Shown piece after piece: positions 1 through 52,205 of a DNA stretch of 64,000 nt. The notes beneath the pieces are model-generated. The model was not told the DNA's origin, searched no databases, and worked only from the letters and a program-made list of their open reading frames with translations. The translations under genes were made by a program, and so were the position numbers. How positions within the stretch are numbered: position 1 is the stretch's first letter; each line of letters opens with the position of its first letter. The stretch is from Geitlerinema sp. PCC 7407 (GTDB lineage Bacteria; Cyanobacteriota; Cyanobacteriia; PCC-7407): positions 2,716,501-2,780,500 of the forward strand of contig NC_019703.1 in the NCBI RefSeq assembly GCF_000317045.1. Reading direction: 5' to 3'.

Positions 1-2
1 AG

Positions 3-2153
3 CCAGATACATATAGTCTTCTTGAAAGTTTGTCTGAGGCTAGAAGCAATCAGTATTTTCGTGCAAACTCAAGACTAGCGAATCTCGAAGGAGAAGTCCG
101 TAAGGGTGATGCTCCAGATCTAGAAAAAATCATTCAGTGGCGTCAGACCTTAGAAAGTTGCTCCTTGCTAGGGCAGTTTATGACTCGCAGTCGTAAACGA
201 GATGTGCTTGAGAATCGGGTCAAGCGATCGCCACAGCCTCTAACTATCAGCTTTTCACTCATAGAAAAGCAAATTTATAATCACATTTCACATCAAATTC
301 GGAAACTTGCAAGAGATCAAACTGGAATAGCCCTGTTTAGCCTAATTGTACGGCAACGTCAGATGGCTAGTTGCATGGTTGCCGCTTTGAGAGAATGGAA
401 AGCAAAAGGCATATTAAGGCAATATGTAAATACCGACAATGAAAGCCTTGCAGAGAATCTTTGGGAAGACTTAGGGATTCTATTTGATGAAGAAGAAGCA
501 AGTGAATATCAATATCCGTTTTCAGAAATTGATTTTTCTGATGAAGATCTAGAACAGCTCAAAACAAATGACAGCAAATATCAAGAATTGATTAAGCTGC
601 TTCGCAAAGAGCTTTCAAGAAATCCCAAGGAAAAGTTTGTTCTTTTTGCCTATTTTCGAGGCACTTTAGAGTACTTGAGGGAACGTCTTGAGGAAGACAG
701 GATTTCGAGCTGCATCATTCATGGCGGTATTGCAAGCAGCAAGGATAGTATTCTCAAGCTTTTCAAAGACACAAATATTTCTGTGCTTCTTTCCTCTGAG
801 GTCGGAAGTGAAGGGATCGACTTGCAATTTTGTCGTTTTTTAATTAATTATGATCTGCCTTGGAATCCAATGCGTGTTGAACAGCGAATTGGACGTTTAG
901 ACAGATTAGGACAAACTGCCAATCGAATTTCAATTATTCATTATGTGATTAACGATACGGTTGAAGAGAGAATCTTGAACAAGCTCTACGATCGCATCGA
1001 TGTATTTAGAGAAAGCATAGGCGATCTTGAGGAGATTTTAGGAGATAAAACCGAGACCCTTATCTTGGATTTGCTGAATCCTGATCTTTCAGAACACGAG
1101 CGAGAAGTAAGAGCAAACCTCACACTGGCAGCGATTGAGACTAAGAAAAGGGAACAGGATAGGCTTGAACAGGAAGCTGGCAACATGATGGCCTTTGGGG
1201 AGTATATCTTGAATGAGATTACTCAAAGTCGCCAGCAGGGTAGATGGCTAAGACCAGCGGACTTAAAGTACTTCATCGACGATTTCTTTCAACTTTATTA
1301 CCCTGAAACAACGATCACTTCCAAACAGAATGGCTTTATTGAAATCAGTCTTTCTTCACAAGCGAGAATAGATCTCAGGCTGTTTTGTGACAAAAGGCGA
1401 CTTGCAACGCCAACAAGGCTTCAGGTAGCTCCTATCACTTGCTTTTTTGACCCCAAAGAAGTTGAGTCAATGGGCAAAGGTGGGTTTGAGTTTCTAGATT
1501 CAACACATCCTTTAATTCAATGGATTCGGGATGAATATGAGAAGAAAGTCAAAGATGCAGGAGTTTCTCATCCGTTCCATAGTGTCTCAGCATTAGAAGT
1601 TAGCAATGAACATGTGAATTGTATTCCGGGTACATACCTTTATGTTATACATCTTTGGGAATTTCAGGGAATACGGACAGAAACACGTCTTGCCTTTGAA
1701 GCAGTTCGAGTAGAAGACAAGTCAAGGTTACTGAATAACGATATAGAAGCTTTGCTTGACAAAGCTTTGGTTTATGGATCACCCAAGCCTAATGTGATTA
1801 ACTTCGTTAATCAAGACGAAATATTCAAATTATATGAAGAGTGCGAAGAGAGGCTCCAGCTAGACTTCTTAAAGTTTGGAGACGCCTTTGAGCAAGAAAA
1901 TACCGATCGATGCAATGTGCAAGAGCAAAGTATTAGAGCCTATACCAATAGGAAAATACGGGATCTGCGCGAAAGGATTGAGAAATTGCAGCTTGAAGGT
2001 AAGTTACGCCCTATTCCAGCTTTTGAAGGCCAATTAAAGAGAGTTCAGCAGGACTGCGAAGTCAATTTAAAGAAGATTGATCAGAAGCGAAAGTATCAAG
2101 ATAAAAATCCAGAACTGGCAGCAGGATTAATTTTCATCACTCAGGCAAGTTAA
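3..2153 (+). CDS. drmD: DrmD, SNF2-family helicase of class 1 DISARM (5' end outside the window)
   Basis: The frame is open to the left edge, so the gene starts upstream and the N-terminal ATPase lobe is missing; the TTG at 30 is only the first possible start inside the window. The visible part carries the C-terminal helicase lobe: a KFVLFAYFRGTLEYL segment near 634, IIHGG near 715, SSEVGSEGIDLQFC near 793 (motif V) and EQRIGRLDRLGQ near 880 (motif VI with arginine fingers). A long charged C-terminal tail follows. SNF2 proteins of this kind are the DrmD component of class 1 DISARM, thought to remodel or translocate on DNA during phage restriction. The family and the five-gene context support the name; the helicase call itself is firm. 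Base composition is AT-richer than drmMI, drmA and drmB. The next gene starts 3 nt after the stop. Confidence 0.85.
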   Translation, partial: PDTYSLLESLSEARSNQYFRANSRLANLEGEVRKGDAPDLEKIIQWRQTLESCSLLGQFMTRSRKRDVLENRVKRSPQPLTISFSLIEKQIYNHISHQIRKLARDQTGIALFSLIVRQRQMASCMVAALREWKAKGILRQYVNTDNESLAENLWEDLGILFDEEEASEYQYPFSEIDFSDEDLEQLKTNDSKYQELIKLLRKELSRNPKEKFVLFAYFRGTLEYLRERLEEDRISSCIIHGGIASSKDSILKLFKDTNISVLLSSEVGSEGIDLQFCRFLINYDLPWNPMRVEQRIGRLDRLGQTANRISIIHYVINDTVEERILNKLYDRIDVFRESIGDLEEILGDKTETLILDLLNPDLSEHEREVRANLTLAAIETKKREQDRLEQEAGNMMAFGEYILNEITQSRQQGRWLRPADLKYFIDDFFQLYYPETTITSKQNGFIEISLSSQARIDLRLFCDKRRLATPTRLQVAPITCFFDPKEVESMGKGGFEFLDSTHPLIQWIRDEYEKKVKDAGVSHPFHSVSALEVSNEHVNCIPGTYLYVIHLWEFQGIRTETRLAFEAVRVEDKSRLLNNDIEALLDKALVYGSPKPNVINFVNQDEIFKLYEECEERLQLDFLKFGDAFEQENTDRCNVQEQSIRAYTNRKIRDLRERIEKLQLEGKLRPIPAFEGQLKRVQQDCEVNLKKIDQKRKYQDKNPELAAGLIFITQAS

Positions 2154-2156
2154 ACT

Positions 2157-3632
2157 ATGGCTACATCAAGCTTAAGTCTCAATCTCGGCATTGACTTTGG
2201 AACCCAGTATACAAAGGTTTGCGTTCGAGATACCGATCATGACGAGTCCTGGGTTGTTATTCCTGGCAACCCTGCTACACGAATCGAGGGTGGCTTAATC
2301 ACCAGTCAAGTAGGGATACATTCAGATGGCCGTCTGATTGCTGGATTAACCCAACCTGAATGGAGACACTACCTTACAACTCATCCCGATTTATTCATCG
2401 TAGATTTTATAAAAATGCGGCTTGCACGCCTTGATCCAGGTCGTGAGGCAAGCAACTGGTACACCTCGAAGTTACCGACGGTACAAGGAGTTAATCTTTC
2501 AAATCCTGAATCCTATGAGAATCTGTGTGCGTTTTTTCTGTATCGAGTAATCAGGCGATCTAAAGACTGGATTTATCGATACAATGCGGATTTACTAAAA
2601 GGAGTTGAAGTTGATTGGAGTGCAATTGTAGGTGTACCTGTTGAATATTGCGATTCTCCTGCTCTAGCACGATTCCATCGGGTGCTTTGTCTTGCGTGGC
2701 ATTTGAGTGTTTACAACGTTGGTCAAGTCACTCTGTCGACGGTAGACAAATATCTGCGTAAACTGCGTTCTAGCCTTGATATTAGCGAGATGCCTTGCTT
2801 TACGGTTCCTGAAATGGCAGCAGCAGTTTATTCATATACATTTTCTCGTCAAGCTAAACGAGGCACCTATGTTTTTTTTGATATTGGGGGTGGCACTATG
2901 GAGGGCGCTGCCTTCCGGTTTCACAGAAACAATATTGATGAAACACCTCAAATCGACTTTCTATCAGGCTTGGTTGAACCCGTTGGCGTTAATGCTTTAG
3001 CCAAGAGAATCGCTCATAGCTCATTAGATCTTGAGAGAAAAATTGAATTTTCAATTATCAATAACAGTTCAGCATGGGTCGCCAAAATTGATGAGCTTTC
3101 TAAGCTCTATAAAAAGAGGCTGAAGATATCAGAGTCGGGGGATGTCATCGCTAACAAGCATGGAATTCCTGTCAGGGTTATTCAAAATGATCTCCGGCCT
3201 GATAACTTTAATATGTATGCCACTCAGATTTTGATACTGGCACAATCACTAATACACCGACAGGTAGCTGCTGTTCTAGGAGACTGTAGACGCAAGCTTC
3301 CTATGCATGAAATACAAAATATTTCTGTTTTCTTGGGTGGCGGCGGCATGGTGTCTAACTATTATATCGATACAATCGAATCTACTTATGACGCTTTTCA
3401 CCTAGGCTCTACTGGAATGCCCCGTTACAAAATGAGAAACATTCCTGTGCCTGGCGATTTTAGTATGAGTGGGCTAGAGGAGGACGACTTTCATCGCTTC
3501 TCAATCGCCTATGGGCTTTCTATTCCTGATTACGATGCCCCCGAGTTTAAGTTACCGACTCAAATGCCTCATACTCCTCCTCCAGCAAAGGGACCAAGAT
3601 GGATTCCTGAAAGTAGTGAGGATGATGGATAA
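2157..3632 (+). CDS. Actin/Hsp70-fold (ASKHA) ATPase inserted in the DISARM operon
   Basis: The 491-aa protein has the three nucleotide-binding signatures of the actin/Hsp70/sugar-kinase fold: phosphate-1 GIDFGTQYTKV at about residues 11-21, phosphate-2 FFDIGGGTMEG near 240-250, and the adenosine loop VFLGGGGMVSN near 392-402. It lacks the substrate-binding domain of a full DnaK. It starts 3 nt after the drmD stop, so it is almost certainly co-transcribed and perhaps translationally coupled. It shares the AT-rich composition of drmD and differs from the GC-rich methylase downstream. It is not one of the five genes of the class 1 DISARM set as I know it (drmD, drmMI, drmA, drmB, drmC). A regulatory or chaperone-like partner of DrmD is my inference; no function is shown. 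Confidence 0.8.
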   Translation: MATSSLSLNLGIDFGTQYTKVCVRDTDHDESWVVIPGNPATRIEGGLITSQVGIHSDGRLIAGLTQPEWRHYLTTHPDLFIVDFIKMRLARLDPGREASNWYTSKLPTVQGVNLSNPESYENLCAFFLYRVIRRSKDWIYRYNADLLKGVEVDWSAIVGVPVEYCDSPALARFHRVLCLAWHLSVYNVGQVTLSTVDKYLRKLRSSLDISEMPCFTVPEMAAAVYSYTFSRQAKRGTYVFFDIGGGTMEGAAFRFHRNNIDETPQIDFLSGLVEPVGVNALAKRIAHSSLDLERKIEFSIINNSSAWVAKIDELSKLYKKRLKISESGDVIANKHGIPVRVIQNDLRPDNFNMYATQILILAQSLIHRQVAAVLGDCRRKLPMHEIQNISVFLGGGGMVSNYYIDTIESTYDAFHLGSTGMPRYKMRNIPVPGDFSMSGLEEDDFHRFSIAYGLSIPDYDAPEFKLPTQMPHTPPPAKGPRWIPESSEDDG

Positions 3633-3681
3633 GAGTTGCCAATGGCGGCAACGTATCAATAGATATTGAGGTTTTAATGTA

Positions 3682-6600
3682 ATGGCAACCGATTTAGACA
3701 TTCTTAAGCATAAGGAATGGCTTGGGCTACTTCAGCCAATCGGTCTCGTCGTTTCACCGCCAGCCCTCATCAAGGCCCAGGCGGTAGTCGATCGCGGGAA
3801 ACTTGTTGATCTGCAAGATCGATTGCTGGGAGTCATTTCAACAGAGCCGATTTCTCGACATCCGGACGACAAGATCGCCTGGATCGAGAACTTCCCGGCC
3901 TTTACGCAGAAGGTGTTGGGATGGCGCGATCGCGATCTTGCTGGCGCTTTGTGCCCAGACGAGTTGCCCGAGAATCTATCGGTCGCTTTGCCTGGCTATG
4001 GGGAAGTGCTGCAACCGACCTATGCGGTTCGTGATCCTGATACTGAGCAATGGGTTCTCCTGATCCAGGAGGTTGCGCCGGGGTTGCCTTTTGATGAAGA
4101 TGATCCGGCATCGGTGGCTGGGCATGGTTGGCAGGCCAGCATTCAAGCGAAGTTTGAGCGGTTGCTGCGGGAGACGGGTGTATATGCCGGATTGCTGGTA
4201 AACGGCACAGAAATTCGATTGGTTTATGCACCCAAAGGAGAGTCTTCGGGGCATCTGACTTTTCCGGTACAGGCGATGACGGAGGTGCCGGGGCGGTTGA
4301 TTTTGGGTGCGATCGATCTGCTGCTGGGGGAAGATCGGCTGTTTAATGTGCCGGAGGATCAGCGGCTGACTCGGCTGCTGGAGGATAGTCGCAACTATCA
4401 GGCCGAAGTTTCTACCAAGCTATCTGGACAGGTTTTGGATGCGCTGTGGGAGCTGCTGCGCGGATTGCAGGCGGCGGATGCGGCGGTGAATGGAAAGATT
4501 TTCAGAGAGCTAGCTGAAACCGATCCACAGCATATCTACGGGGGACTGATTGCCACGCTGATGCGGCTGGTGTTTCTGCTGTATGCCGAGGATGAGGGGC
4601 TGATGCCGGATGATGAGGTGTATCAGCGCAACTACGCGGTGTCGGGCCTGTACGAGAAGCTGCGGGAGGATGCGGGCAACTACCCAGACACGATGGATCA
4701 GCGGTATGGAGCGTGGGCCGCTCTGTTGAGCCTGTTTCGGCTGGTGTATGACGGGGGAGGACCGACGGAGGAGTATCTCCCAGCACGGCATGGGCAGTTG
4801 TTTGATCCAGATGAGTATCCCTATCTAGAAGGCCGCTCCCTCGGTTCTCGCTTTGCGACCTGTGGCAGGATTGAAGCCCCTCGCGTCTCGGATGGGGTGA
4901 TCTACCGGATGCTGGATAAGCTGCTGGTGCTGGATGGAGAGCGGCTGTCCTATCGATCGCTGGACGTTGAGCAGATCGGCTCGGTCTATGAGGCAATCAT
5001 GGGCTATGAGGTAGAGATCGCTCGCGGACGATCGATCGCGGTGCGTCCAAAAGATGTGGTGGTGGATGTGGACGAAATCCTGGCGGCAAAGCCAGCCGAT
5101 CGCGCCAAGATGCTCAAGGAGGCAGAGTGTGAGCTAAAAGGGGGCGCTCTGAAGGAGCTGAAGGAGGCCAAAACGGCAGAGGAGATTGCCGCTGCCATTG
5201 GTCGGCGGGTTTCGCCTAGAACGCCAAACCTGTTGGCGGCGGGCAGTCTGTTTTTGCAGCCGGGAGAGGAGCGGCGGCGATCGGGGTCTCACTACACACC
5301 CCGGAAGCTGACGCAGCCGATCGTAGAGAAGACGCTGGAACCGGTGCTAAAAAATTTGGGTGAGCATCCCACGCCAGAGCAGCTATTGGATCTGAAGGTG
5401 TGCGATCTGGCGATGGGGTCGGCGGCGTTTTTGGTGGAAGCCTGTCGGCAGCTAGCAGACGAGCTGGTGGAAGCCTGGAACTACCACGGGAAGCCTGCGG
5501 ATCTGCCGGAGACGGTAGAGGATGTGGTGGTGGCGCGGCGACTGGTGGCGCAGCGGTGTTTGTATGGGGTGGATAAGAACCCCTTTGCAGTGAACCTGGC
5601 GCGGTTGTCGCTGTGGTTGGTGACGTTGGCAAAGGATTTGCCGTTTACGTTTTTGGATCATGCGCTGAAGTGTGGTGACTCGTTGGTGGGGCTGACCAGG
5701 GCGGAGATTGGCAGCTTTGGGGCGAGTGCGGCCTATGAGCCGACGGTTTTTGAAGAGCACAAGCGGTTGATGAAGCAGTCGGCAACAAGGGCGCTGGCGT
5801 ATCGGCAACAGATCCAAGGGTCGGATACCCGATCGGATGGGGATGCGGAGGCGAAACAGGCCCTGTTGCAGGATGTGGATCGATCGCTGGAGCCCACTCG
5901 ACTGGCGGCAAAAGTCGCTATTGCGGCGTTTTTCGCGGGGGGAAATGCGAAACAGCGGCAAAAGAATCGTGAGGAGTTTGGTGGGAAGCTGATCGGCTAT
6001 GAGAAGGGGTTGGTAGACGAATCCGAGGTGCAAGCGGTGGTTGCCAAGCTGACCACAGGGACAAAAGCCGTGTTGCCGTTTAACTGGGAATTGGAGTTTC
6101 CAGAGGTGTTTGAGCGGGAGAATCCAGGATTTGACGCGATCGTCGGCAATCCCCCATTCGCCGGAAAAAATACCACGATCAACGCCAACCCCGAGGGCTA
6201 TCTAGAGTGGCTCAAAGTGGTCCATCCAGAATCCCACGGCAATGCAGATCTGGTATCTCATTTTTTCCGTCGATCTTTTAACCTGATTCGCCAAAACGGC
6301 ACCTTTGGCCTGATCGCGACAAACACGATCGCCCAAGGAGATACTCGCAGCTCGGGACTTAGATTTATCTGTCAGAATGGCGGCACAATTTACAACGCGC
6401 AAAAGCGGGTGAAATGGCCCGGACTAGCGGCAGTAGTTGTAAGCGTGGTGAATATATTTAAAGGCAGGTATCAAGGCGTCAAGAGCCTGGACAATCGAGC
6501 ACTCGAAAGAATTACAGCGTTTCTATTTCACGATGGCGGACATGAAAATCCAGCCGTATTGATTGCCAATGCCAACAAGAGTTTTCAGGGCAGCATTGTA

Positions 6601-7626
6601 TTAGGCATGGGTTTTACTTTTGATGACTCAAACTCAGATGCAACCCCCATTGCAGAGATGCACCGCTTAATCGAAAGTGATCCACGCAATGCCGAGCGGA
6701 TTTTTCCTTACATCGGCGGCGAGGAAGTGAACAGCAGCCCTACTCATGCTCACCATCGCTACGTGATTAATTTTGGTGACATGAAGGAGGATGAGGCGCG
6801 GAAATATCCTGACTTGATGGCGATCGTTGAAGAGAAAGTTAAAGGAACTCGCGGAAAGCATTCAACCGCGCCTTGGTGGCAGTTTGAGCGATTACGAGAA
6901 GAGTTATTCAAAGCGATCGCCCAGTGCGATAGGGTACTAGTCACCAATGCTCAAGCATCAACTTATTTATCATTTATCTTCTACCGACCAGATGTAGTAT
7001 TTGCGAATAGCCTTAATATTTTTCCATTGCAGCGAGACTCAGATTTTGCTGTATTACAATCGCGGGTGCATGAAGTTTGGGCACGGTTCTTCAGTTCCTC
7101 AGTTAAGGATGATCTTCGCTACAATCCCTCCGACTGTTTTGAAACCTTTCCCTTCCCCCCTGACTGGGAAACCAACCCCACCCTCGAAGTCGCAGGCAAA
7201 ACCTACTACGAGTTCCGCGCCGATCTCATGATCCGCCACAACGAAGGACTCACCGCCACCTACAACCGCTTCCACGACCCCGACGAAACCAAGCCCGACA
7301 TCCTCAAACTGCGCGAACTCCATGCCCAAATGGATCGCGCCGTCCTCGATGCCTACGGTTGGGCAGATATCCCCACCGACTGCGAATTCCTGCTCGACTA
7401 CGAAGACGACGACCCCGCAGGCACCAGCAAACGCAAGAAGCCCTGGCGCTACCGCTGGCCCGAAGAAGTCCACGACGAAGTTCTCGCTCGCCTGCTAAAG
7501 CTCAACCAGGAACGGGCTGAAGAAGAGAAACGAGGAGGTCAAACCACTAGGAAACAGGCCAAGAAATCTCGCCCATCTCCGCCGCCAAAACCCTCCGAGC
7601 CTACGATTCCAGGACTCAATCTCTGA
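3682..7626 (+). CDS. drmMI: DrmMI, adenine-N6 DNA methyltransferase of class 1 DISARM
   Basis: The 1314-aa protein is a large Eco57I/type IIG-like N6-adenine methylase. The AdoMet-binding motif I is the CDLAMGSAAFLVEA segment near residue 572. The catalytic motif IV is NPPF near residue 823, followed by the expected target-recognition region and a charged Lys-rich tail. A long N-terminal region of about 500 residues precedes the methylase core. In DISARM the methylase marks self DNA. Length and position between drmD and drmA fit class 1 DrmMI. The gene is compositionally mosaic: a G-rich 5' two-thirds, an AT-richer stretch at about 6.2-7.1 kb covering the presumed target-recognition domain, and a C-rich 3' end. 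The start is the ATG at 3682, with only a weak ribosome-binding site upstream. Confidence 0.88.
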   Translation: MATDLDILKHKEWLGLLQPIGLVVSPPALIKAQAVVDRGKLVDLQDRLLGVISTEPISRHPDDKIAWIENFPAFTQKVLGWRDRDLAGALCPDELPENLSVALPGYGEVLQPTYAVRDPDTEQWVLLIQEVAPGLPFDEDDPASVAGHGWQASIQAKFERLLRETGVYAGLLVNGTEIRLVYAPKGESSGHLTFPVQAMTEVPGRLILGAIDLLLGEDRLFNVPEDQRLTRLLEDSRNYQAEVSTKLSGQVLDALWELLRGLQAADAAVNGKIFRELAETDPQHIYGGLIATLMRLVFLLYAEDEGLMPDDEVYQRNYAVSGLYEKLREDAGNYPDTMDQRYGAWAALLSLFRLVYDGGGPTEEYLPARHGQLFDPDEYPYLEGRSLGSRFATCGRIEAPRVSDGVIYRMLDKLLVLDGERLSYRSLDVEQIGSVYEAIMGYEVEIARGRSIAVRPKDVVVDVDEILAAKPADRAKMLKEAECELKGGALKELKEAKTAEEIAAAIGRRVSPRTPNLLAAGSLFLQPGEERRRSGSHYTPRKLTQPIVEKTLEPVLKNLGEHPTPEQLLDLKVCDLAMGSAAFLVEACRQLADELVEAWNYHGKPADLPETVEDVVVARRLVAQRCLYGVDKNPFAVNLARLSLWLVTLAKDLPFTFLDHALKCGDSLVGLTRAEIGSFGASAAYEPTVFEEHKRLMKQSATRALAYRQQIQGSDTRSDGDAEAKQALLQDVDRSLEPTRLAAKVAIAAFFAGGNAKQRQKNREEFGGKLIGYEKGLVDESEVQAVVAKLTTGTKAVLPFNWELEFPEVFERENPGFDAIVGNPPFAGKNTTINANPEGYLEWLKVVHPESHGNADLVSHFFRRSFNLIRQNGTFGLIATNTIAQGDTRSSGLRFICQNGGTIYNAQKRVKWPGLAAVVVSVVNIFKGRYQGVKSLDNRALERITAFLFHDGGHENPAVLIANANKSFQGSIVLGMGFTFDDSNSDATPIAEMHRLIESDPRNAERIFPYIGGEEVNSSPTHAHHRYVINFGDMKEDEARKYPDLMAIVEEKVKGTRGKHSTAPWWQFERLREELFKAIAQCDRVLVTNAQASTYLSFIFYRPDVVFANSLNIFPLQRDSDFAVLQSRVHEVWARFFSSSVKDDLRYNPSDCFETFPFPPDWETNPTLEVAGKTYYEFRADLMIRHNEGLTATYNRFHDPDETKPDILKLRELHAQMDRAVLDAYGWADIPTDCEFLLDYEDDDPAGTSKRKKPWRYRWPEEVHDEVLARLLKLNQERAEEEKRGGQTTRKQAKKSRPSPPPKPSEPTIPGLNL

Positions 7627-7744: not shown

Positions 7745-10700
7745 ATGACAACTTCTGCTGAAATTCGCTCTGCCCTAGTCGATGCTCTCCAAATCGACCT
7801 AGTGGGGCCTAAACCTGACAACACAGAGCACGCTGAAGAAGTACTCCTTCAGGCTCCCTCTAGGCGATATCTCACCGGCTTCCTGGCTCCCTTTGGCGCA
7901 AAACTCGACGATCGCTCAGACGACGAAGGAGACATCGAACCACAAGAGCTAGGAGAGAAAGCCACCAGCGAAGATAGTCAACTGCCCGAGCCAACTCCCG
8001 CGCGCAAAGCACCATTTCCCTCCTCTATGGGAATGAGCTTTCTCATTTCCCCCCGGACCACAGAGCTGCTAGCGACAGTTCACTGGGCCGATTACAAACC
8101 CATTGAGAAAGACAGACCCCCTCTCGAAACAGAGGAGCCAGACGGCACTCAGCAGCCCAAATCGCGAGAATGGCGGCGGATTCCTCAATCGGTCTCCCGC
8201 AGCATCGCGATCCGAGCGTCGAAGGATTCGTTTACAACCGATCTTTCCGCAGGGAGTGGCCTTGCCCTCGTCGTCAACTGTCGCCCCGTGACGGATCATC
8301 GCTTTGAGGCAGGAACCCTTTCCGTTTCTATCTTTCTTGTCAATAACCGTCAGATGGCCTCTAGCGAGAAAGATACGTCCTTTGTCTTTCAAACTTGCCT
8401 CATGGTGCAGTGCTCAGAGGGATTTGTGCCCCGCGCAGACCCACGGGGCCTAGATAGCAGAGACCCCGATGAGGCGATCGCTAACCTCCAATATCGCCAC
8501 GAGTACGAGTTTGCCGTGGGGCACAACGTCTCCGTCATCGCCCATGCTGCCCTCATCCCTCGCCCCTCTCCCGTGTTGGGAGAGGGAAATCGTCCGTCTC
8601 CCATTTCCCCGAGTGAGAGACGGGTTGGAGATGTGGGGGCCATGTGCACCGAGGTCTGTACTACCTGGATTCCGATCGCTGAGGTGCCCAGGGTCGAAGC
8701 CGCCCCCTTGCCCATGGTCCAACTGGACATGGAGGCATTAGCCACGGCCAAAAATGCAGAGGTGATCCAGCAAATGCTCAGCCCCATGGTGGCAGAATAC
8801 CGCACCTGGATCGCCGCTCAGTACAACACCCCCATTGAGCCCCCCCAGGCCAACAACGTTGCCCAAGCCCTGCTGAACGATGCTCGCCGTGCCTGCGATC
8901 GCATTGAAGCAGGCATTCATTTGCTGGCTGACCCGCAGGTGCTAGAAGCCTTTCGGACTGCCAATCGAGTCGTGGCGATCGCGCGTCGTCGCCAACTCAG
9001 CCAAGAACAAAGCCAACCACCAGAAAGTTTCCAGCCTCCTGCATGGCGACCGTTCCAGCTTGCTTTTATCCTGCTCAATCTAGTGAGTATTGCCCAGCCC
9101 GAGTGTCTGGATCGAAGCATCGTTGATCTGCTGTTTTTCCCCACAGGGGGTGGTAAAACAGAAGCCTATCTCGGGCTAGCCGCCTTTACCCTAGTGCTGC
9201 GTCGCCTCAAGCATCCAGGCATTCGCTCTGCCGGCGTGAGCGTCCTCATGCGCTACACCCTGCGATTGCTCACCCTTGACCAGTTAGAGCGAGCCTCTCG
9301 TCTGATTTGTGCCCTAGAGCTAGAGCGACAAAAAGACCCGACAAAGCTGGGTCAGTGGCCTTTTGAGATTGGGCTTTGGGTGGGACGGGCCGCAACCCCC
9401 AACAGACTGGGCAAACGCGGGGAAAAAGACAAGTACTCTGCCCGTGAGCGGACCCTTACCTTCAAGCAAGATAGCAAAAACGAACCCTCGCCTATTCCCC
9501 TAGAGCGCTGCCCTTGGTGTGGCGAGAAGTTTTCGGCCAACTCCTTTCAGCTGCAACCGACCGAGGATACGCCGAAAAATCTCACGGTTGTGTGCGTCAA
9601 TCGAGACTGTGACTTTCGCAGCCGCAACCCCCTACCCATTCTCGCAGTCGATGAGCCGATTTATCGGCGCTTACCCTGCTTCATGATCGCCACGGTCGAT
9701 AAATTTGCTGCACTGCCTTGGGTGGGACAAACCGGGGCGTTGTTTGGTCGTGTCACCCATTACCAGAATGGTGAAGGCTTTTATAGCGCCGCTGATCCGA
9801 CGATCGCTGGTAAACCATTAGACAACTACCTCCCCCCTCCTGATTTAGTGATCCAGGATGAATTGCACCTGATCTCGGGTCCCCTTGGTACGATGGTCGG
9901 CCTATACGAAACGGCGATCGACACGCTCTGCTCCCATACCAGCGCCGACTCCGGTAAACCCATTCGCCCTAAAATCATTGCCTCAACCGCCACAGTGCGG
10001 CGAGCCAAACATCAGATTCAAGCCCTCTTCGGTCGGGGTCATGTCGATATCTTTCCGCCACCTAGCCCCGATCGCCACGATTCCTTCTTTGCCAAAACAG
10101 ACTTTACAGTTCCCGGACGGCTCTACCTGGGCGTTGCTGCCCAGGGACGCAGCCTCAAAGTTGTTTTGCTCAGAACCTATCTGGCGCTCATGTCAGCCGC
10201 CTACAAGCAATACGAAGAACAGGGCGGCAAACGGAACAAGGAGAACCCGGCTGACCCCTATATGACCCTGATGGGATACTTCAACTCCTTACGCGAACTG
10301 GGAGGAAGCCGTCGAATTGTTGAAGACGAGGTCGTCGCTCAACTGGCGAACTACGGCGATCGCCTACGGCCCGGTGAGCTCGTGGGACCATTTCTCAATC
10401 GGAAAATTGACGACGAGCCTGAAGAACTCACCTCGCGGGTCAGCACCAACAAAGTTGCCAATACCAAGCGTCGATTAGCCCTGCCATTTCACGAAAAAGA
10501 GCGAGTCGATGTGGCGCTGGCCACCAACATGATTTCCGTTGGTCTGGATATTGTGCGGTTAGGCTTAATGGTTGTTCTGGGACAACCCAAAACAGCCGCA
10601 GAATATATTCAGGCCACCAGTCGGGTGGGTCGAGATCCCAAGCGTCCTGGATTAGTCGTTACCCTGCTCAATGTTCATCGACCTCGCGATCGCTCTCACT

Positions 10701-11227
10701 ACGAACGCTTCCAAAGCTGGCACAACAGCTTCTACAGAGCAGTCGAGGCCACCAGTGTCACTCCCTTTTCGCCTCGTGCCTTAGACCGGGGGTTAGCAGG
10801 GATTGTTGTTGGGCTCACTCGCTTGAGTATTCCAGCAATGACCCCGGCGCTGGGAGCCGCAAACATCAATAGTCAGGAAGATGGAATCAAGGCAGTCGTG
10901 GAGGCGATCGCCTGTCGCGCTGAGAGTTACAGCCCGGACCTAGATGCTGCCGCAACGAGCAAGCTACGGCAGCAGGTCAGAGCACAGGTACTAGATCTAA
11001 TCGACACCTGGAGACAAATTGCGAATCGAGATAAGCAGCTGCAATACCAGAAGGAAGCCGATCTCGCTCCTCCGCTACTACTAGACGCACTCAGCCCAGA
11101 TGCTGACAAAGAGCCCCGCGAACGTCAAAAGTTCAAGGCTTACCGTAGCTTGCGCGATGTCGAAGCAACCGTCAATCTTTGGGTACGCGAGCCCTATGGA
11201 CTGGATATGGAGGACGAAAACCGATGA
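7745..11227 (+). CDS. drmA: DrmA, superfamily 2 helicase-domain protein of DISARM
   Basis: The 1160-aa protein has a Walker A motif, FFPTGGGKTEAY, near residue 464. A DELH Walker B follows near 704, SATVRRA (motif III) near 746, and QATSRVGRDP (motif VI) near 955. Two paired-cysteine zinc-finger half-sites sit between the lobes (CPWC near 588, CVNRDC near 617). This arrangement, followed directly by a DUF1998 protein and a phospholipase D protein, is the conserved drmA-drmB-drmC core of DISARM; DrmA and DrmB form the DNA-engaging complex. The gene ends in an ATGA overlap with drmB. About 30 residues near position 269-298 come from a palindromic repeat inserted in frame (see that entry). Confidence 0.92.
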   Translation: MTTSAEIRSALVDALQIDLVGPKPDNTEHAEEVLLQAPSRRYLTGFLAPFGAKLDDRSDDEGDIEPQELGEKATSEDSQLPEPTPARKAPFPSSMGMSFLISPRTTELLATVHWADYKPIEKDRPPLETEEPDGTQQPKSREWRRIPQSVSRSIAIRASKDSFTTDLSAGSGLALVVNCRPVTDHRFEAGTLSVSIFLVNNRQMASSEKDTSFVFQTCLMVQCSEGFVPRADPRGLDSRDPDEAIANLQYRHEYEFAVGHNVSVIAHAALIPRPSPVLGEGNRPSPISPSERRVGDVGAMCTEVCTTWIPIAEVPRVEAAPLPMVQLDMEALATAKNAEVIQQMLSPMVAEYRTWIAAQYNTPIEPPQANNVAQALLNDARRACDRIEAGIHLLADPQVLEAFRTANRVVAIARRRQLSQEQSQPPESFQPPAWRPFQLAFILLNLVSIAQPECLDRSIVDLLFFPTGGGKTEAYLGLAAFTLVLRRLKHPGIRSAGVSVLMRYTLRLLTLDQLERASRLICALELERQKDPTKLGQWPFEIGLWVGRAATPNRLGKRGEKDKYSARERTLTFKQDSKNEPSPIPLERCPWCGEKFSANSFQLQPTEDTPKNLTVVCVNRDCDFRSRNPLPILAVDEPIYRRLPCFMIATVDKFAALPWVGQTGALFGRVTHYQNGEGFYSAADPTIAGKPLDNYLPPPDLVIQDELHLISGPLGTMVGLYETAIDTLCSHTSADSGKPIRPKIIASTATVRRAKHQIQALFGRGHVDIFPPPSPDRHDSFFAKTDFTVPGRLYLGVAAQGRSLKVVLLRTYLALMSAAYKQYEEQGGKRNKENPADPYMTLMGYFNSLRELGGSRRIVEDEVVAQLANYGDRLRPGELVGPFLNRKIDDEPEELTSRVSTNKVANTKRRLALPFHEKERVDVALATNMISVGLDIVRLGLMVVLGQPKTAAEYIQATSRVGRDPKRPGLVVTLLNVHRPRDRSHYERFQSWHNSFYRAVEATSVTPFSPRALDRGLAGIVVGLTRLSIPAMTPALGAANINSQEDGIKAVVEAIACRAESYSPDLDAAATSKLRQQVRAQVLDLIDTWRQIANRDKQLQYQKEADLAPPLLLDALSPDADKEPRERQKFKAYRSLRDVEATVNLWVREPYGLDMEDENR
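8551..8640 (+). repeat. Double-hairpin palindromic repeat inserted in frame in drmA
   Basis: A 9-bp perfect stem, CCCTCTCCC at 8564-8572 and GGGAGAGGG at 8578-8586, encloses a 5-nt loop. It is followed by a second inverted repeat, CCGTCTC at 8594-8600 and GAGACGG at 8617-8623. The frame stays open and adds the low-complexity peptide LIPRPSPVLGEGNRPSP plus about 13 more residues to DrmA. Such CCCTCTCCC/GGGAGAGGG palindromes are widespread intergenic repeats in bacteria, so this one looks like a miniature repeat that landed inside a coding region without breaking it. Confidence 0.75.
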
Positions 11228-13116
11228 GCAATAAGAAAAGCCAGCCTAAACCCAGTGGCGAATTGCGGCAGAGCCAAGTGCTAACCACCTTCGGTCCTGG
11301 CTCAATGGTCGATTTACCGACCCACTCTGTCGTCATTGCGGGATTGACCTACTGGAAAGGCGATCGCCAAACTATTTGGGAGGATCGGCTCCGCTACAAA
11401 GTCGCCAAAAGCCTGGACATCGATCCTCAGACAATCCAACTCTGCACACCACCTCAACAATCTAGCGATCCCCGAGCTGCCCTCAGTGGCATTGATGCCT
11501 TTGTCTTCCCCACTTGGTTTCTGGGACAAGTAGACAGAACCTATCAACACAAGGATGGCAAAGTTTACCGAACTCGACCGCTAGTGAGGTGGAGCGCAGT
11601 CAGAAGCGGGTTCAAGCATGAAGGCAGAAAAACTCAAGCAGTCCCTGTCCGCTTCGTCCAGGCTTGTACCAATGGTCATCTCAGCGATATCGATTGGTAC
11701 GCCTTTGCTCACAATGATTTCAATACCCGCTGCTGCAAACCACTTTGGTTAGATGAGGGCGGCTCCGGCAACGACTTCGAAGAAATTTTCGTTCGCTGTG
11801 AATGTGGCAAGCGGCGTCCTCTTTCCAACGCCAAACTAAAAGATTCCAAAGTACTGGGTAAGTGTCAGGGACTTCGCCCTTGGTTAGGTCCCCGTGGTCA
11901 AGAGTCTTGCACTACACACAAAATCAATAGCAATGGTGACACTACAGAGCAACCTGAATACAATCGTTTGCTCGTGCGCTCTGCCAGCAATACCTACTTC
12001 AGCCAAACCCTTAGCGTCATTTCCATGCCCGACCAGGCGGCTGAGCTGAAGAAGGCAGTCGATTGCTTCTATGAGGAAGATTTACAGTTTGCTGAAGACT
12101 TGGCAGATATTCAAAAAGAATTCAAGAAGCCGAAGTTTGCTGAACTGGCCAACTTTGGAGCAGAGGTTGTCTGGACAGAAGTGAAGCGGCGTAAAAGTGG
12201 GTTAACGATTCCAGACAAAAGTATTAAGCAAGTAGAACTGGAGGCACTACTCGCCTGCCCTGACGAAATGGGCAAAGAAGTTCCAACGGCAGATCAGGAT
12301 TTTCAGGGATATGCTCGTCGTTTGGATACGCTAGATGCGAAATGGCGATCGGCCATCGATCGGGTCGTGCTGGTGCATCGTTTACGGGAAGTTACGGCGT
12401 TGATTGGCTTTACCCGCTTTGAGGCTGCCATGCCGAATATTGAGGGTGAGATTGATGACTTAGCGATCAATGTTCGTAGGGCCAAGCTAGACTTCGAACC
12501 CAAGTGGGTGCCTGCGATCGAAAACTTGGGTGAAGGTGTTTTCATCAGCATCTCGAGAGACGCAATCCGCAAATGGTTGGAACGCCCGGAGGTTAAAGCC
12601 CGGGAAAAGAAGCTTGAGCAGGGATTTTACAAATGGCTCGACACGAGGGGCATTCCCCGCGACAGGACAAAGTTTCCCGGCACACCATACATCATGCTGC
12701 ACTCTCTTTCTCACTTACTCATCACAGCCGTGTCTCTCGATTGCGGCTATGCCTCCAGCGCCATCCGCGAGCGGATTTATGCCTTTGATGATATTGGCTA
12801 CGGTATTCTGCTCCACACGGGCACTTCAGGCTCAGAAGGGACTCTAGGTGGCTTGGTTGAGGTCGGTAGGCGGATTGAAGAACACCTCGGCAGAGCCTTA
12901 GAGTACGGTCGGCTATGCTCCAATGACCCCGTATGCGCCCAGCACCAACCGGATGACGCACAGGAGGATCGTTTACTGCACGGAGCGGCCTGTCACGGGT
13001 GCTTACTCATTGCCGAGACTTCCTGCGAACGCCGGAATGAAATGCTGGATCGCGCATTAGTCGTGAACACCGTAGCAGGACTGGGAACAGAATTTTTCCC
13101 AGATATTGTCTCATGA
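11224..13116 (+). CDS. drmB: DrmB, DUF1998 protein of DISARM
   Basis: Starting at ATG 11224 gives 630 aa; this ATG overlaps the drmA stop as ATGA. A longer reading from 11179 would run deep into drmA and is less likely. Near the N-terminus is the FGPGSMVDLP motif typical of DrmB. The C-terminal 150 residues form the DUF1998 domain: LHSLSHLLITAVSLDCGY, then GYGILLHTGTSGSEGTLGGL, then a cysteine-rich end (CSNDPVC, CHGC) that probably binds zinc. DrmB partners with the DrmA helicase in DISARM. The stop overlaps the drmC start by ATGA, so drmA, drmB and drmC form one translationally coupled unit. Confidence 0.92.
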   Translation: MSNKKSQPKPSGELRQSQVLTTFGPGSMVDLPTHSVVIAGLTYWKGDRQTIWEDRLRYKVAKSLDIDPQTIQLCTPPQQSSDPRAALSGIDAFVFPTWFLGQVDRTYQHKDGKVYRTRPLVRWSAVRSGFKHEGRKTQAVPVRFVQACTNGHLSDIDWYAFAHNDFNTRCCKPLWLDEGGSGNDFEEIFVRCECGKRRPLSNAKLKDSKVLGKCQGLRPWLGPRGQESCTTHKINSNGDTTEQPEYNRLLVRSASNTYFSQTLSVISMPDQAAELKKAVDCFYEEDLQFAEDLADIQKEFKKPKFAELANFGAEVVWTEVKRRKSGLTIPDKSIKQVELEALLACPDEMGKEVPTADQDFQGYARRLDTLDAKWRSAIDRVVLVHRLREVTALIGFTRFEAAMPNIEGEIDDLAINVRRAKLDFEPKWVPAIENLGEGVFISISRDAIRKWLERPEVKAREKKLEQGFYKWLDTRGIPRDRTKFPGTPYIMLHSLSHLLITAVSLDCGYASSAIRERIYAFDDIGYGILLHTGTSGSEGTLGGLVEVGRRIEEHLGRALEYGRLCSNDPVCAQHQPDDAQEDRLLHGAACHGCLLIAETSCERRNEMLDRALVVNTVAGLGTEFFPDIVS

Positions 13117-13916
13117 TGTCTCCGTTGATGAAATTGAGCCGTCCTGCTCTGGTTGGTCTGGCTTCCGCCCTGGAAACCGAGCGGTTCAGCTTCCCAATTT
13201 ATCCATTCGCTCTGGCAAGCTATGTACCAGAGCAACTGACAGGGGCGATCGCGTCTGAGCTCAATCAGCTACAGCAGGAGGGCATGAGCCCAGTGCATAT
13301 GGCCTATATGCTAGAACTACTGGCACAGGAGCGCGCGATCACCCACCAAAAACAAGACCAAATCGATCTAGTCTGGACAGGCCCTGAACTTTCTGGGAGC
13401 GAGAGCCGCGATACAGCGGTAGTTGTGCAAGAGCTTTTCAGCAGCGCACAACACAGCGTCTTAGTTTCCAGTTTTGCAATTGATCAAGGCAACAAAGGGC
13501 GCAAGCTGTTTCATCCCCTGGTGAGACAGATGGACTTAAATCCCAACCTAAGCGTCCGCCTATTTCTAAACATCAAGCAAAATTATAGAAACGCAAAACC
13601 TGCCTCTATCCTGCTAGAAGAGTTCTCTCATAATTTTCGTCAGCATGTTTGGTCAGGGTGTCAACTACCAGAAATTTTCTATGATCCCCGATCGCTAGAA
13701 TTATCGACCCAGACAAACGCCTGTCTACATGCAAAGTGCATCATCATTGATGAAGAGAAAGCCTTTATTACATCTGCAAATTTCACAGAAGCAGCCCATC
13801 AACGCAACATTGAGGCAGGAGTTTTAGTGCGTGATCAAATTACTGCAAGAGCAATCTTGTCACAATTCGAGATGCTAGTCACTCAAGGCATTCTCTATCG
13901 AGTTCCAGGATTCTAG
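13113..13916 (+). CDS. drmC: DrmC, phospholipase D-fold protein of DISARM
   Basis: The 267-aa protein has one clear HKD motif, HAKCIIIDEEKAFITSANF near residues 207-225, with the invariant His, Lys and Asp and the following Asn of the phospholipase D/nuclease superfamily. An upstream half with SSFAID near residue 112 lacks a second full HKD, as expected for a protein that would dimerise to form its active site. The start overlaps the drmB stop by ATGA. DrmC is the third core gene of DISARM; its exact role is unsettled in the family. It is the last gene of the defence operon. Confidence 0.9.
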   Translation: MMSPLMKLSRPALVGLASALETERFSFPIYPFALASYVPEQLTGAIASELNQLQQEGMSPVHMAYMLELLAQERAITHQKQDQIDLVWTGPELSGSESRDTAVVVQELFSSAQHSVLVSSFAIDQGNKGRKLFHPLVRQMDLNPNLSVRLFLNIKQNYRNAKPASILLEEFSHNFRQHVWSGCQLPEIFYDPRSLELSTQTNACLHAKCIIIDEEKAFITSANFTEAAHQRNIEAGVLVRDQITARAILSQFEMLVTQGILYRVPGF

Positions 13917-14379
13917 ACCTTATCAATAAGATTTAAATTAGACAATATTTAACATCTCGAACTTGATATTTTCTCAAAATCATTTTTCAGAAATTCATGT
14001 TTACTCAGCACTCAACCGTTTCTACTACCAACCTTCGTGAATCAGTTCATTAAAAAGTCAGCCATCGAAGGCTTCTGAGCTAAAAGCAGAAAGGCGATGG
14101 AACCTTGAAATTCATATCAAGCAAGACTTTGAGCCAGCATAACAACACCACAAAAGCATTGATTCAAAAATCACTCTTTGGAAGGAAGACACATAAAACA
14201 TCCATCTTTTTGCAGATGCTTTTATGGACATAAATGTTAGCCTTCTAAGATTTCGAGAATGAAATATTAATCTACTTTAATTTCTATTGATTTTATTCTC
14301 AGCTTTTTATGATTGCGATCGCCAATGTCCCGAAACGCGGTATTACTTTGTTAGAGAATTTCAAACTTAATACACCATC
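13917..14379. other. AT-rich intergenic region between the DISARM operon and ggtB
   Basis: No coding frame is convincing here. An imperfect inverted repeat built on CCATCG and CGATGG (about 14064-14102) could be a weak terminator for drmC. The last 150 bp are AT-rich and should carry the ggtB promoter, but I cannot pick -35/-10 boxes with confidence. Composition changes from AT-rich to GC-rich near 14.37 kb, which marks the right edge of the defence locus. No integrase, tRNA or direct repeat is visible at this edge. Confidence 0.5.
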
Positions 14380-15693
14380 GTGACTGTCTTCACGCGGATT
14401 AAGCAACGGCTTGTCTCCTTTGCAACATCCTTTCGGCGATCGCGATCGCCTCGATTGGCGATCGCTGCCTTTTTGGTAGGACTCAGCATTACATTCGCCA
14501 GTTGGGTTTTGGCCCAGCAGCCCGTCACCGTGACGGTGCTGCTCCAAACCCTGGAGGCCTCTCAGTGGAGTTCTCTGATTGAGGACTTTGAGGCTGAAAA
14601 CCCCAATATTCGCATCAGCATCATCGAAGGACCCAACGCAACGGACGCCATTTCCGATCTCTATACCTCGTCATTTCTCTTAGGAGATTCTCCCTATGAC
14701 CTGGTTTATATGGATATTGTCTGGGTGCCCAAGTATGCCGCTGCGGGATGGCTTTTGCCCCTCTCCGACCGCGTCACAGACGAAGATCTCAATGACTATC
14801 TGGAAGCCGATCTCGAGGGGGGACGCTACGATGGCGAGCTCTACCGCATCCCGTTTCGGACCGATGCTGGGATGCTCTACTATCGGCGCGATCTCTTAGA
14901 AGAGGCGGGCTTTGAGCCGCCAGAGACCTTTGATGATTTGATGCGTATCTCCAAAGCGCTCCAAAACGCTGGAGAGGCAACCTGGGGATTTGTCTGGCAG
15001 GGCAATCAGTACGAGGGATTGGTTGCTGACTATGTCGAGATCCTAGAAGGATATGGCGGGTTCTGGATTGATCCGGATACTCGAGAAATAGGCCTCGATC
15101 AGCCTGCGGCGATCGCCTCTGTCGAGTTTCTGCTCAGCACCATTCGCGAAGGCATTTCTCCCCCCGGCGTCACCACCTACCAAGAAGAAGAGACCCTCCG
15201 TCTTTTCCAAAATGGCTCGACGGTCTTCCTACGAAACTGGCCCTACGTCTGGCCAGAAGTCAACCGAGAAGACTCACCCATTGCGGGCAAAGTCGCCCTC
15301 AAAGCCATGGTCCACGCTCCGGGCGAGAACAGCGGGGCCTGCAAGGGAGGCTGGGGCTTTGGCATTGCCAAGTCCAGTCGCCACCCCGACGAAGCTTGGA
15401 AAGTCGTCGAGTTTTTCAGCCGAGCAGAGTCGCAAAAACAGTTTGTGCTAGAGAACGGCTATGTTCCCAGCCGCAAATCTCTCTTTCGAGATGCGGATAT
15501 CTTGGCGAAATATAGCTATTACGACGAGCTAATCGATGTTGTCGAGCAGTCTGTTTTGCGCCCCCCGATTGGTCAGTATGACCAAGCTTCAGACATTCTT
15601 CAGCGCTATCTCAGCTCTGCGCTCACTGGCATCCAGACGCCTGAGCAGGCCATGCGGGCGGCAGCCGCCGAGACGCGCCGACTCTTGAGCTAA
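14380..15693 (+). CDS. ggtB: GgtB, periplasmic binding protein of the glucosylglycerol ABC importer
   Basis: The 437-aa extracellular solute-binding protein starts with GTG. It has an Arg-rich n-region, a hydrophobic segment (about residues 26-44) and a likely signal-peptidase site after VLAQ; no lipobox cysteine is present. The rest matches the sugar-binding family 1 fold of maltose/trehalose-type binding proteins (YDLVYMDIVWVPKYAAAGWL near 105, KGGWGFGIAKSS near 324). It is followed by two binding-protein-dependent permeases, and the matching ATPase lies near 32 kb. The surrounding ggpS, glpK, gghA and glpD point to glucosylglycerol as substrate, as for the Ggt system of Synechocystis, which also takes sucrose and trehalose. 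The substrate is inferred from context. Confidence 0.82.
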   Translation: MTVFTRIKQRLVSFATSFRRSRSPRLAIAAFLVGLSITFASWVLAQQPVTVTVLLQTLEASQWSSLIEDFEAENPNIRISIIEGPNATDAISDLYTSSFLLGDSPYDLVYMDIVWVPKYAAAGWLLPLSDRVTDEDLNDYLEADLEGGRYDGELYRIPFRTDAGMLYYRRDLLEEAGFEPPETFDDLMRISKALQNAGEATWGFVWQGNQYEGLVADYVEILEGYGGFWIDPDTREIGLDQPAAIASVEFLLSTIREGISPPGVTTYQEEETLRLFQNGSTVFLRNWPYVWPEVNREDSPIAGKVALKAMVHAPGENSGACKGGWGFGIAKSSRHPDEAWKVVEFFSRAESQKQFVLENGYVPSRKSLFRDADILAKYSYYDELIDVVEQSVLRPPIGQYDQASDILQRYLSSALTGIQTPEQAMRAAAAETRRLLS

Positions 15694-49507: not shown

Positions 49508-50491
49508 ATGACGCTCTTTTTCAGGAATATTTTCTTCGTCGTTGGTTTCCCATTAATTTTCACTGGACTAGCACTTTTAACGACTTTTTTTTATTACATT
49601 ATGATAGTTTTCATTCTGAGACCACTTATTAGTACACTATTAGGATGGATATGGGGAGCAATCAGTTTTTGGATAATACCTACTAACTTTTTTAATGTAT
49701 TTCAGTTTACAGGACTAGACTGGATTGACTTTTTAATAGGTTGTTTTATTTATATTTTCATAATATTTTCCTGTATCTGCGGAATACTAATAGCTGCTGG
49801 AATAGAAGATGAGTTCCGCAGAGATTCCGATATCCAACAATTTGTCTTGTCTATACTTTTATTACCTTTTGTACTAATTGGAATAGGATTTTCAAACTTG
49901 TACATATTGAGCAATAAAGCTATATTCTTGATTCTTGTTTTAGGTAGCACAATCATATTTTGTTTCTTGACAACAGTTTTAGACTTTGTTCAAGTCGCAA
50001 CTCTTGGATCCGAAAGTCTTTACACAATTAATATTTTTACAGATCATGCAAGCTATACACTTGGCCATCTTACTGGAAATGTCATTTATACAAAAAGCTT
50101 TTTAAGTTGGATCAAAGAAGATCAAATATATATCAGTAGCTTTTTTGATTATTGGTTATATAGCTTAAATGCATCCATAGGAGGGTACAGAGTATCGGGC
50201 TTTGGTCATTTCGTTGCAAGAGTCTTCAATCTTATCTGTAGCATTCTTTATTTTATTTTAGGCTACTTCACTATCATCTCCACTTTAAATAACTCGTTAG
50301 ATAATTTAGGCGGAATTAAAAGTATTCAAGAAGCAATAGAGATAAACAAGAGTATTTTGAGACTTGAAAGATTTTTAAGCAACGTTATTTCTTCATTGGT
50401 GATTTTTGTGTTATTCCGTCTAATTTTTTGGTGGGTTTCACAAGGTTCATTGGTTAATATATCTGTCACACAGATAATTCTTCTTGGGTAA
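49508..50491 (+). CDS. Polytopic membrane protein of unknown function
   Basis: The 327-aa protein is very hydrophobic and AT-rich at the DNA level. I count about seven likely membrane segments: two near the N-terminus (FVVGFPLIFTGLALLTTFFY and the next), then FLIGCFIYIFIIFSCICG, two around VLSILLLPFVLIGIGFS and IFLILVLGSTIIFCFLTTVL, one near LICSILYFILGYFTII, and one at the C-terminus. No family is recognised. It lies between the YbjQ-like and pentapeptide genes, apparently in one transcript. Confidence 0.6.
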   Translation: MTLFFRNIFFVVGFPLIFTGLALLTTFFYYIMIVFILRPLISTLLGWIWGAISFWIIPTNFFNVFQFTGLDWIDFLIGCFIYIFIIFSCICGILIAAGIEDEFRRDSDIQQFVLSILLLPFVLIGIGFSNLYILSNKAIFLILVLGSTIIFCFLTTVLDFVQVATLGSESLYTINIFTDHASYTLGHLTGNVIYTKSFLSWIKEDQIYISSFFDYWLYSLNASIGGYRVSGFGHFVARVFNLICSILYFILGYFTIISTLNNSLDNLGGIKSIQEAIEINKSILRLERFLSNVISSLVIFVLFRLIFWWVSQGSLVNISVTQIILLG

Positions 50492-50557
50492 TCTCAGTCA
50501 GAATAACAATGCAAATTCCCAGGCTTAAAAACTTTCAATAAATAGTGGATTAAGCAG

Positions 50558-51787: not shown

Positions 51788-51825
51788 TTGGGAAGCAGAT
51801 AAATTCGAATTCTTGAAACTGTGCT

Positions 51826-51914
51826 GTCTAGCAAACCTGCTGAAGCGGACTAGCGGGAACTTCTAGTCATTATTGCAAAGGCTATTTGTAACCGATCAGC
51901 AGGAATATTAAAGC
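51826..51914 (+). repeat. attC-like integron recombination site A
   Basis: An 89-bp imperfect palindrome has R''-like GTCTAGC, L'' AACCTGCTGAAGCGG (51834-51848), L' CCGATCAGCAGGAAT (51892-51906) and a degenerate R' near 51908. L'' and L' pair over TCAGCAGG and CCG with unpaired bases between, the bulged geometry of attC sites. It follows the pentapeptide gene directly. The R boxes are decayed, so it may be inactive. Confidence 0.6.
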
Positions 51915-51917
51915 AGA

Positions 51918-52190: not shown

Positions 52191-52205
52191 AAGTACATAA
52201 AAACA

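Follow-up and report, generated by a model that had tools for sequence, protein, structure and literature searches.

We analysed a 64,000-nucleotide stretch of the genome of Geitlerinema sp. PCC 7407 (contig NC_019703.1, positions 2,716,501 to 2,780,500; hereafter the window), together with the genome sequence to its left. At positions 2157-3632 on the plus strand lies an ORF of 491 aa that starts 3 nt past the stop codon of an ORF encoding a SNF2 helicase, here called Hel2, and that is separated from drmMI by 49 nt. The product of the 491-aa ORF is referred to below as ASKHA, after the superfamily of actin/Hsp70-fold ATPases to which we assign it. The gene order is drmD, Hel2, ASKHA, drmMI, drmA, drmB, drmC, with Hel2 and ASKHA forming a pair between drmD and drmMI. 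The host operon is a complete class 1 DISARM, with all five canonical genes on one strand and in canonical order, and its drmMI, drmA, drmB and drmC genes give strong matches to the PADLOC and NCBIfam DISARM models. It thus has the same five genes in the same order as class 1 DISARM elsewhere (DrmD, DrmMI, DrmA, DrmB, DrmC), and differs in the two extra genes at the drmD/drmMI junction, which the 31 comparison loci lack. The features are as follows (window positions, except where L007 or genome coordinates are given).

L007:8217-11474 (genome 2712216-2715473), directly upstream of Hel2 and outside the window: true drmD (PDLC02621, NF038317)
L007:11478 or 11487-14654, plus strand: whole Hel2 gene, its start approximately 1 kb to the left of the window
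1..3681, plus strand: section, within the window, of the insert of 4,708 bp that separates the stop codon of drmD (L007 base 11474) from the start of drmMI
1..2153, plus strand: 3' two thirds of Hel2, a predicted RapA-like Swi2/Snf2 ATPase and partner of ASKHA; not the drmD of DISARM
2157..3632, plus strand: second gene of the pair, encoding a predicted ASKHA ATPase that consists solely of a nucleotide-binding domain of Hsp70 type
3682..7626, plus strand: drmMI of the host operon (PDLC02640/02643)
7745..11227, plus strand: drmA of the host operon (NF038325, 1218 bits)
11224..13116, plus strand: drmB of the host operon (NF038324, 593 bits)
13113..13916, plus strand: drmC of the host operon (PDLC02587, 434 bits; NF038319)

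The original prediction took the helicase encoded 3 nt upstream of ASKHA to be DrmD. Inspection of the sequence left of the window revealed two Swi2/Snf2 helicases in tandem, and the outer of these is the true DrmD (1142 bits with PDLC02621 and 1178 bits with NF038317, for which the cut-off is 610). Hel2, the inner helicase, scored 1632 bits with PDLC02623 and 656 bits with NF038317, the latter above the cut-off; four stand-alone relatives of Hel2 that are likewise partners of an ASKHA scored 423-469 bits with NF038317, which is below it. Moreover, in a tree of 51 proteins a single branch with a support of 100 and very long stems separated 31 Hel2-type proteins from 20 DrmD proteins. The identification of the window helicase as the DrmD of DISARM was therefore rejected, since Hel2 falls in a separate clade and an intact copy of the true drmD directly precedes it. 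Judged by sequence, Hel2 belongs to a separate RapA-like Swi2/Snf2 family, though databases also name it DrmD. DrmD (PDLC02621, NF038317) and Hel2 are both Swi2/Snf2 ATPases, and the Hel2-family model PDLC02623 is labelled DrmD, but Hel2 differs from DrmD in its separate clade and in being paired with ASKHA and not with DrmMI. (Note that the PADLOC model PDLC02572, labelled DrmA, fits DrmD proteins (637 bits; L007:8217-11474) and not DrmA here, which suggests that this model is mislabelled.)

The Swi2/Snf2 motor motifs (Walker A, DEAH and QRIGR) are invariant in 22 aligned Hel2 sequences, and the copy in the window has the same motifs. When an AF2 model of a Hel2 homologue, which is of moderate confidence (pLDDT 76), was compared with known folds, RapA was the top match: 724 residues could be aligned with a Z of 20.5, residues 65-1052 of the homologue corresponding to residues 110-967 of E. 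coli RapA, and the rmsd of 12.8 points to a different placement of the domains. In this model Hel2 comprises a small N-terminal beta domain, the motor, alpha+beta domains and long C-terminal helices. RapA and BrxHII share the same domain architecture, and their extra alpha+beta domain has been called a degenerate nuclease fold (PMC12839542). Hel2 is like these ATPases along its length in both fold and architecture, but it is of a different sequence family and has an ASKHA gene adjoining it in all loci examined. We conclude that Hel2 is, by prediction, a Swi2/Snf2 ATPase of the RapA type whose motor motifs are intact. In neither Hel2 nor ASKHA did we recognise an active nuclease domain.

For ASKHA itself, an AF2 model with a pLDDT of 85.8 and a pTM of 0.88 was obtained. 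Its best fold matches were the nucleotide-binding domains of DnaK and BiP (Z about 26 over 326 residues, rmsd 3.5), and MreB matched with a Z of 23.3. Consistent with this, Hsp70 was the best match when an ASKHA profile was compared with the PDB (E 6e-8; approximately 17% identity to Hsp70), whereas a single-sequence phmmer search of the PDB gave no match. Searches of Pfam, PADLOC and NCBIfam found no family for ASKHA, and no match to PF00012 up to an E of 0.1. The protein has a two-lobed fold and carries, in order, the phosphate-1, phosphate-2 and adenosine motifs that together define the ASKHA superfamily. The motifs and putative catalytic residues are located as follows.

2184..2204, plus strand: phosphate-1 motif LGIDFGT, residues 10-16; D13 invariant
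2412..2414, plus strand: invariant K86, within FIKMRLA; corresponds in position to the catalytic K70 of DnaK, judged by motif and by the order of secondary-structure elements
2811..2813, plus strand: invariant E219, within VPEMAAA; corresponds in position to the Hsp70 catalytic glutamate (NEPTAAA)
2877..2897, plus strand: phosphate-2 motif FDIGGGT, residues 241-247; D242 and T247 invariant
3336..3347, plus strand: adenosine motif GGGG, residues 394-397

D13, K86, E219, D242 and T247 do not vary among 20 ASKHA sequences and match, by motif, residues D8, K70, E171, D194 and T199 of DnaK. (Because hhalign, run with the ASKHA profile against the DnaK of the same genome, aligned the first motif only, the assignment of K86 rests on motif and secondary structure.) A substrate-binding domain is absent; the ASKHA model ends with the nucleotide-binding domain, and residues 474-491 are disordered. 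ASKHA is therefore like the nucleotide-binding domain of Hsp70 (DnaK/BiP) in fold, in sequence profile and, by motif, in its catalytic residue set, and differs from Hsp70 in having no substrate-binding domain, in its low sequence identity and in being gene-linked to a Swi2/Snf2 motor. Its identification as an Hsp70 chaperone was rejected for want of a substrate-binding domain, and the protein is best described, as far as its sequence and predicted fold allow, as a stand-alone Hsp70-type nucleotide-binding domain that has, by motif, kept the catalytic set. The presence of an ASKHA ATPase inside a class 1 DISARM operon and before drmMI, as originally predicted, is thus borne out by the ORF, the Hsp70 profile matches, the AF2 fold and the DISARM models.

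Two groups of ASKHA proteins depart from this pattern. In a diverged subclade from Aminobacter and Sphingobium (L005:11458-13227, L127:12105-13868) the phosphate-2 motif reads DVGA(M/S)TLD instead of D(I/V)GGGT, so that catalysis may be altered, and is perhaps dispensable in some copies. Leptolyngbya-type ASKHA proteins (L044, L045, L046, L047, L049, L050, L033, L035, L004) have 250-630 additional N-terminal residues, with a possible hydrophobic hairpin, whose hydropathy is mostly under the usual membrane threshold, followed by a long coiled coil.

Hel2 and ASKHA are adjacent in 36 loci, which come from cyanobacteria, proteobacteria and spirochaetes and in most cases have no DISARM (note that this count pools several searches and that a few of the loci contain frameshifts or are truncated by a contig end). 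Searched against plasmids by tblastn, ASKHA yielded four full-length relatives, each beside a Hel2-type helicase and without DISARM. A scan of genome contigs with the single ASKHA protein detected no relatives; a scan of bacterial genomes with an alignment-based profile brought up 27 loci, at which, with two exceptions, Hel2 lay immediately beside ASKHA. The exceptions are L063, which is cut by a contig end, and L053, which has a relative of Hel2 without a motor (see below). Searches that began from the helicase gave a similar picture, with ASKHA adjoining in 5/5 strong hits from 386 cyanobacterial genomes, in 2/2 from 289 genomes of another class (one of them L062's own genome) and in 6/6 on plasmids, the sixth of which, a second Sphingobium plasmid, was assigned by identical match only. 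(The Sphingobium ASKHA is too diverged for tblastn, but is found by profile with an E of 2e-26.) Where Hel2 comes first, the gap between the two genes is mostly -8 to +13 nt, and in Leptolyngbya-type cyanobacteria the order is reversed, with ASKHA before Hel2. A mirror-tree comparison gave a distance correlation between Hel2 and ASKHA of r = 0.957, to which species history contributes and which none of 2000 permutations equalled. Viral contigs and phage records contained no relative. (The DrmD-like helicase of L042, which scored 439 bits and lies next to PDC-S68, was not counted as part of a pair since no ASKHA was recognised there.) These genomic data indicate that Hel2 and ASKHA constitute a near-obligate genetic unit that is usually independent of DISARM. 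A search of open-access papers found no described pair of a helicase with an Hsp70-like or actin-like protein.

At three cyanobacterial loci ASKHA occurs without the Hel2 motor, and a Hel2-related protein of 478-544 aa is encoded directly upstream of it.

L053:3362-4798, L040:7498-9003 and L041:7141-8775: motor-less Hel2 relatives, directly upstream of ASKHA

The C-terminal part of Hel2 is kept in 3/3 of these relatives and the N-terminal part in 2/3, and the Swi2/Snf2 motifs are gone. At L053 the ASKHA gene is intact and begins 3 nt after that of the motor-less protein; at L041 it is frameshifted. If ASKHA needs a partner, the N- and C-terminal parts kept in this sample of three loci may be its docking site, and such natural motor-less variants would provide a handle on where Hel2 and ASKHA meet. 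The same variants bear on the idea that ASKHA is a dedicated assembly chaperone that folds the large Hel2 or stops it from aggregating and has no role in target recognition. Although the Hsp70-type fold, the catalytic residues and the strict pairing with one client are what would be expected of such a protein, ASKHA persists beside partners that have no motor and lacks a substrate-binding domain, the genes beside the pair include no recognised partner of the J-protein or GrpE type, and the long N-terminal coiled coil of some cyanobacterial ASKHA proteins would be odd for a folding helper. We regard this explanation as rather unlikely.

How the pair came to lie within DISARM is suggested by a comparison with the closest operon that we found, that of Phormidesmis priestleyi BC1401, whose DrmD is 84% and whose DrmMI is about 73% identical to the proteins encoded here. 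In BC1401 only 12 bp separate the stop codon of drmD from the start codon of drmMI, as against 4,708 bp in the Geitlerinema operon, and in Calothrix PCC 7716 the same junction measures 11 bp. It is probable that the old coupling site of the drmD/drmMI junction now serves the pair, because the 12 bp that precede drmMI in BC1401, GGAGAGAGAACA, resemble GTGGAGAAA, which is found just before the likely ATG of Hel2. Base composition likewise sets the pair apart from the host operon: GC3 is 0.358 in Hel2 and 0.364 in ASKHA versus 0.517 in drmD, 0.608 in drmMI, 0.579 in drmA, 0.536 in drmB and 0.474 in drmC. The AT-richness that the original prediction saw as common to ASKHA and drmD hence holds for the adjoining helicase, Hel2, and not for the true drmD. 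(Another AT-rich gene block, with a GC3 of 0.27-0.30, is present at window positions 49508-55484; the window otherwise has a GC3 of 0.6-0.8.) None of the 31 other loci with drmD and drmMI in the comparison set contains the pair, which rules against ASKHA as a member of the conserved DISARM gene set and agrees with its earlier placement outside the canonical class 1 genes. The further proposal of a helicase-chaperone pair that was added to DISARM as a unit can be retained as far as the unit is concerned, given the many copies without DISARM, the shared composition and the 12-bp empty site; the word chaperone is too strong for a protein that has no substrate-binding domain. As a separate observation, GNAT genes, a gene for an ATP-binding protein with DUF4435, MqsA with SecB, XRE genes and IS elements were seen at drmD/drmMI and drmMI/drmA junctions (L077-L088, L094-L113).

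In trees, the window's Hel2 and ASKHA fall together with those of Spirulina subsalsa, which form a stand-alone pair. A DISARM operon of Afipia has Hel2, ASKHA and PDC-S68 ahead of drmD, drmMI, drmA and drmB, and the Afipia Hel2 groups with that of Microvirga. Because the two pairs group differently, the capture in the window is separate from that in Afipia. DISARM linkage of the pair was found in these two loci only, so that the link between ASKHA and drmD sought by the original prediction in other genomes is rare, whereas a link between ASKHA and a DrmD-like helicase is nearly universal. A BREX operon of a spirochaete also contains the pair, in the order BrxB, BrxC, PglX, Hel2, ASKHA, three ORFs, PglZ, BrxL and PsyrT. 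(The spirochaete BREX operon has further extras (L124:6402-16484, L068:4831-20350): a PD-Lambda-2 B-like gene splits the pglX ORF, and PsyrT follows brxL.) By tree grouping and gene order, at least two DISARM operons and one BREX operon have each acquired the pair independently. Two other candidates were set aside. At Nodosilinea L049 the pair is flanked by a DrmMI-like fragment, approximately 5 kb upstream, and by a DrmA-like fragment, approximately 4 kb downstream; this locus was rejected as a DISARM capture since it has only part of the DISARM set, at the ends of contigs. The L060 genome has a gammaproteobacterial BREX, which was not counted since it is on another contig.

These distributions also weigh on the possibility that Hel2 and ASKHA are integral extra subunits of DISARM that work only with DrmA and DrmB, be it in loading, in regulation or in replacing DrmD. 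The pair shares the strand and the tight spacing of the operon, and its second, independent association with DISARM in Afipia could be read in the same way; nevertheless, most copies have no DISARM nearby, the 31 comparison loci do without the pair, a further copy sits within BREX, and the native drmD has been retained, all of which makes this possibility quite improbable. The original prediction that ASKHA is an accessory controlling DISARM's own DrmD has the position of the gene inside the operon in its favour, as well as the fact that the true DrmD is itself a Swi2/Snf2 ATPase. That prediction did not hold up, and we consider it very improbable, since the neighbouring helicase is Hel2, the operon's own drmD is intact upstream, and no other drmD-drmMI locus examined has an ASKHA except that of Afipia, which has Hel2 too. 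Finally, a ParM/MreB-like filament system for segregating plasmids or islands, linked to a helicase by chance, would fit the MreB match in the fold comparison and the location of several pairs on plasmids, but Hsp70 is the better match in both fold and sequence, most loci are chromosomal or on contigs without a partition locus, and the obligate partner is a Swi2/Snf2 ATPase and not a centromere-binding protein, so that we give this idea almost no credence.

Defence genes adjoin the pair at many loci but not at all: its frequent neighbours include Hachiman, CRISPR I-D, PDC-S68, HmaC, BREX and DISARM, and no recognised defence gene was found near it at Spirulina L043 or Mycoplana L054. Such neighbours support, by association, a possible defence role for the pair. 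In proteobacteria PDC-S68, a PADLOC candidate with a RecD-like helicase, is recurrent next to the pair, sometimes with an HmaC-like ATPase upstream, and PDC-S68, Hel2 and ASKHA possibly make up a three-gene system.

L057:11400-15218, L058, L059, L063, L065:11362-15075, L126:13210-16977 and L067:2718-6524: loci at which the pair is associated with PDC-S68

We think it reasonably probable that Hel2 and ASKHA make up a mobile module of two genes that works autonomously, most likely against phages, and that is nested as cargo in the drmD/drmMI junction of this operon. The two proteins would form a complex in which Hel2 acts as a RapA-type DNA translocase and ASKHA as its nucleotide-dependent regulatory subunit, docked on the N-terminal and/or C-terminal parts of Hel2 that the motor-less variants keep. 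By analogy with the actin-related proteins of Snf2 remodelers, the ATP/ADP state of ASKHA could serve as a clutch for the Hel2 motor. On foreign DNA the motor might strip or block the transcription or replication complexes of phages; because no nuclease was recognised, the effect of the pair would be to remove or stall DNA-bound protein complexes of the phage. Beside DISARM, the pair would then provide a second layer of defence and would not steer DrmD.

Several described systems resemble parts of this arrangement. Arp7/9 regulate a Snf2-family ATPase (PMC5969521), and the likeness of Arp7/9 and related subunits to ASKHA lies in an actin/Hsp70-fold protein that serves one Snf2-family motor; this is a functional analogy only, and no homology of arrangement is claimed. 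BrxU, which is inserted in a BREX operon and is active alone (PMC8565348), is likewise the product of an extra gene nested in a methylation-based defence operon and defends by itself, but BrxU is a type IV nuclease, whereas Hel2-ASKHA is a nuclease-free pair. Of the Hsp70-like ATPases described from defence operons in the literature searched, the nearest is CnuD, which belongs to the CoCoNuT type IV restriction systems and has an Hsp70-like nucleotide-binding domain and a substrate-binding domain, with degenerate motifs reported, and McrBC-like GTPase partners (PMC11090510). ASKHA shares with CnuD its place in a defence operon with NTP-driven motors, and differs from it in consisting of the nucleotide-binding domain only, in its intact motifs and in its Swi2/Snf2 ATPase partner. 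(Membership of the pair in CoCoNuT, which would call for linkage to a McrB-type GTPase with coiled coil and to McrC, was rejected since the partner of ASKHA is Hel2 in all loci examined.)

For annotation, the findings correct that of this DISARM operon and indicate that current tools hide a two-gene candidate by labelling its helicase 'DrmD'. They name Hel2-ASKHA as a candidate of the helicase-centred kind of defence module, a pair that is undescribed in the open-access literature searched, and they portray DISARM and BREX operons as hosts for smaller nested modules. More tentatively, and by analogy, it is possible that the pair is a bacterial counterpart of the Arp-regulated Snf2 remodelers, in which an obligate RapA-like motor would be gated by an Hsp70/actin-fold ATPase and the whole traded as an anti-phage plug-in among DISARM, BREX and other islands. 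The question thereby raised is whether Swi2/Snf2 motors in bacteria, as in eukaryotes, are run with a regulatory subunit of the actin/Hsp70 fold.
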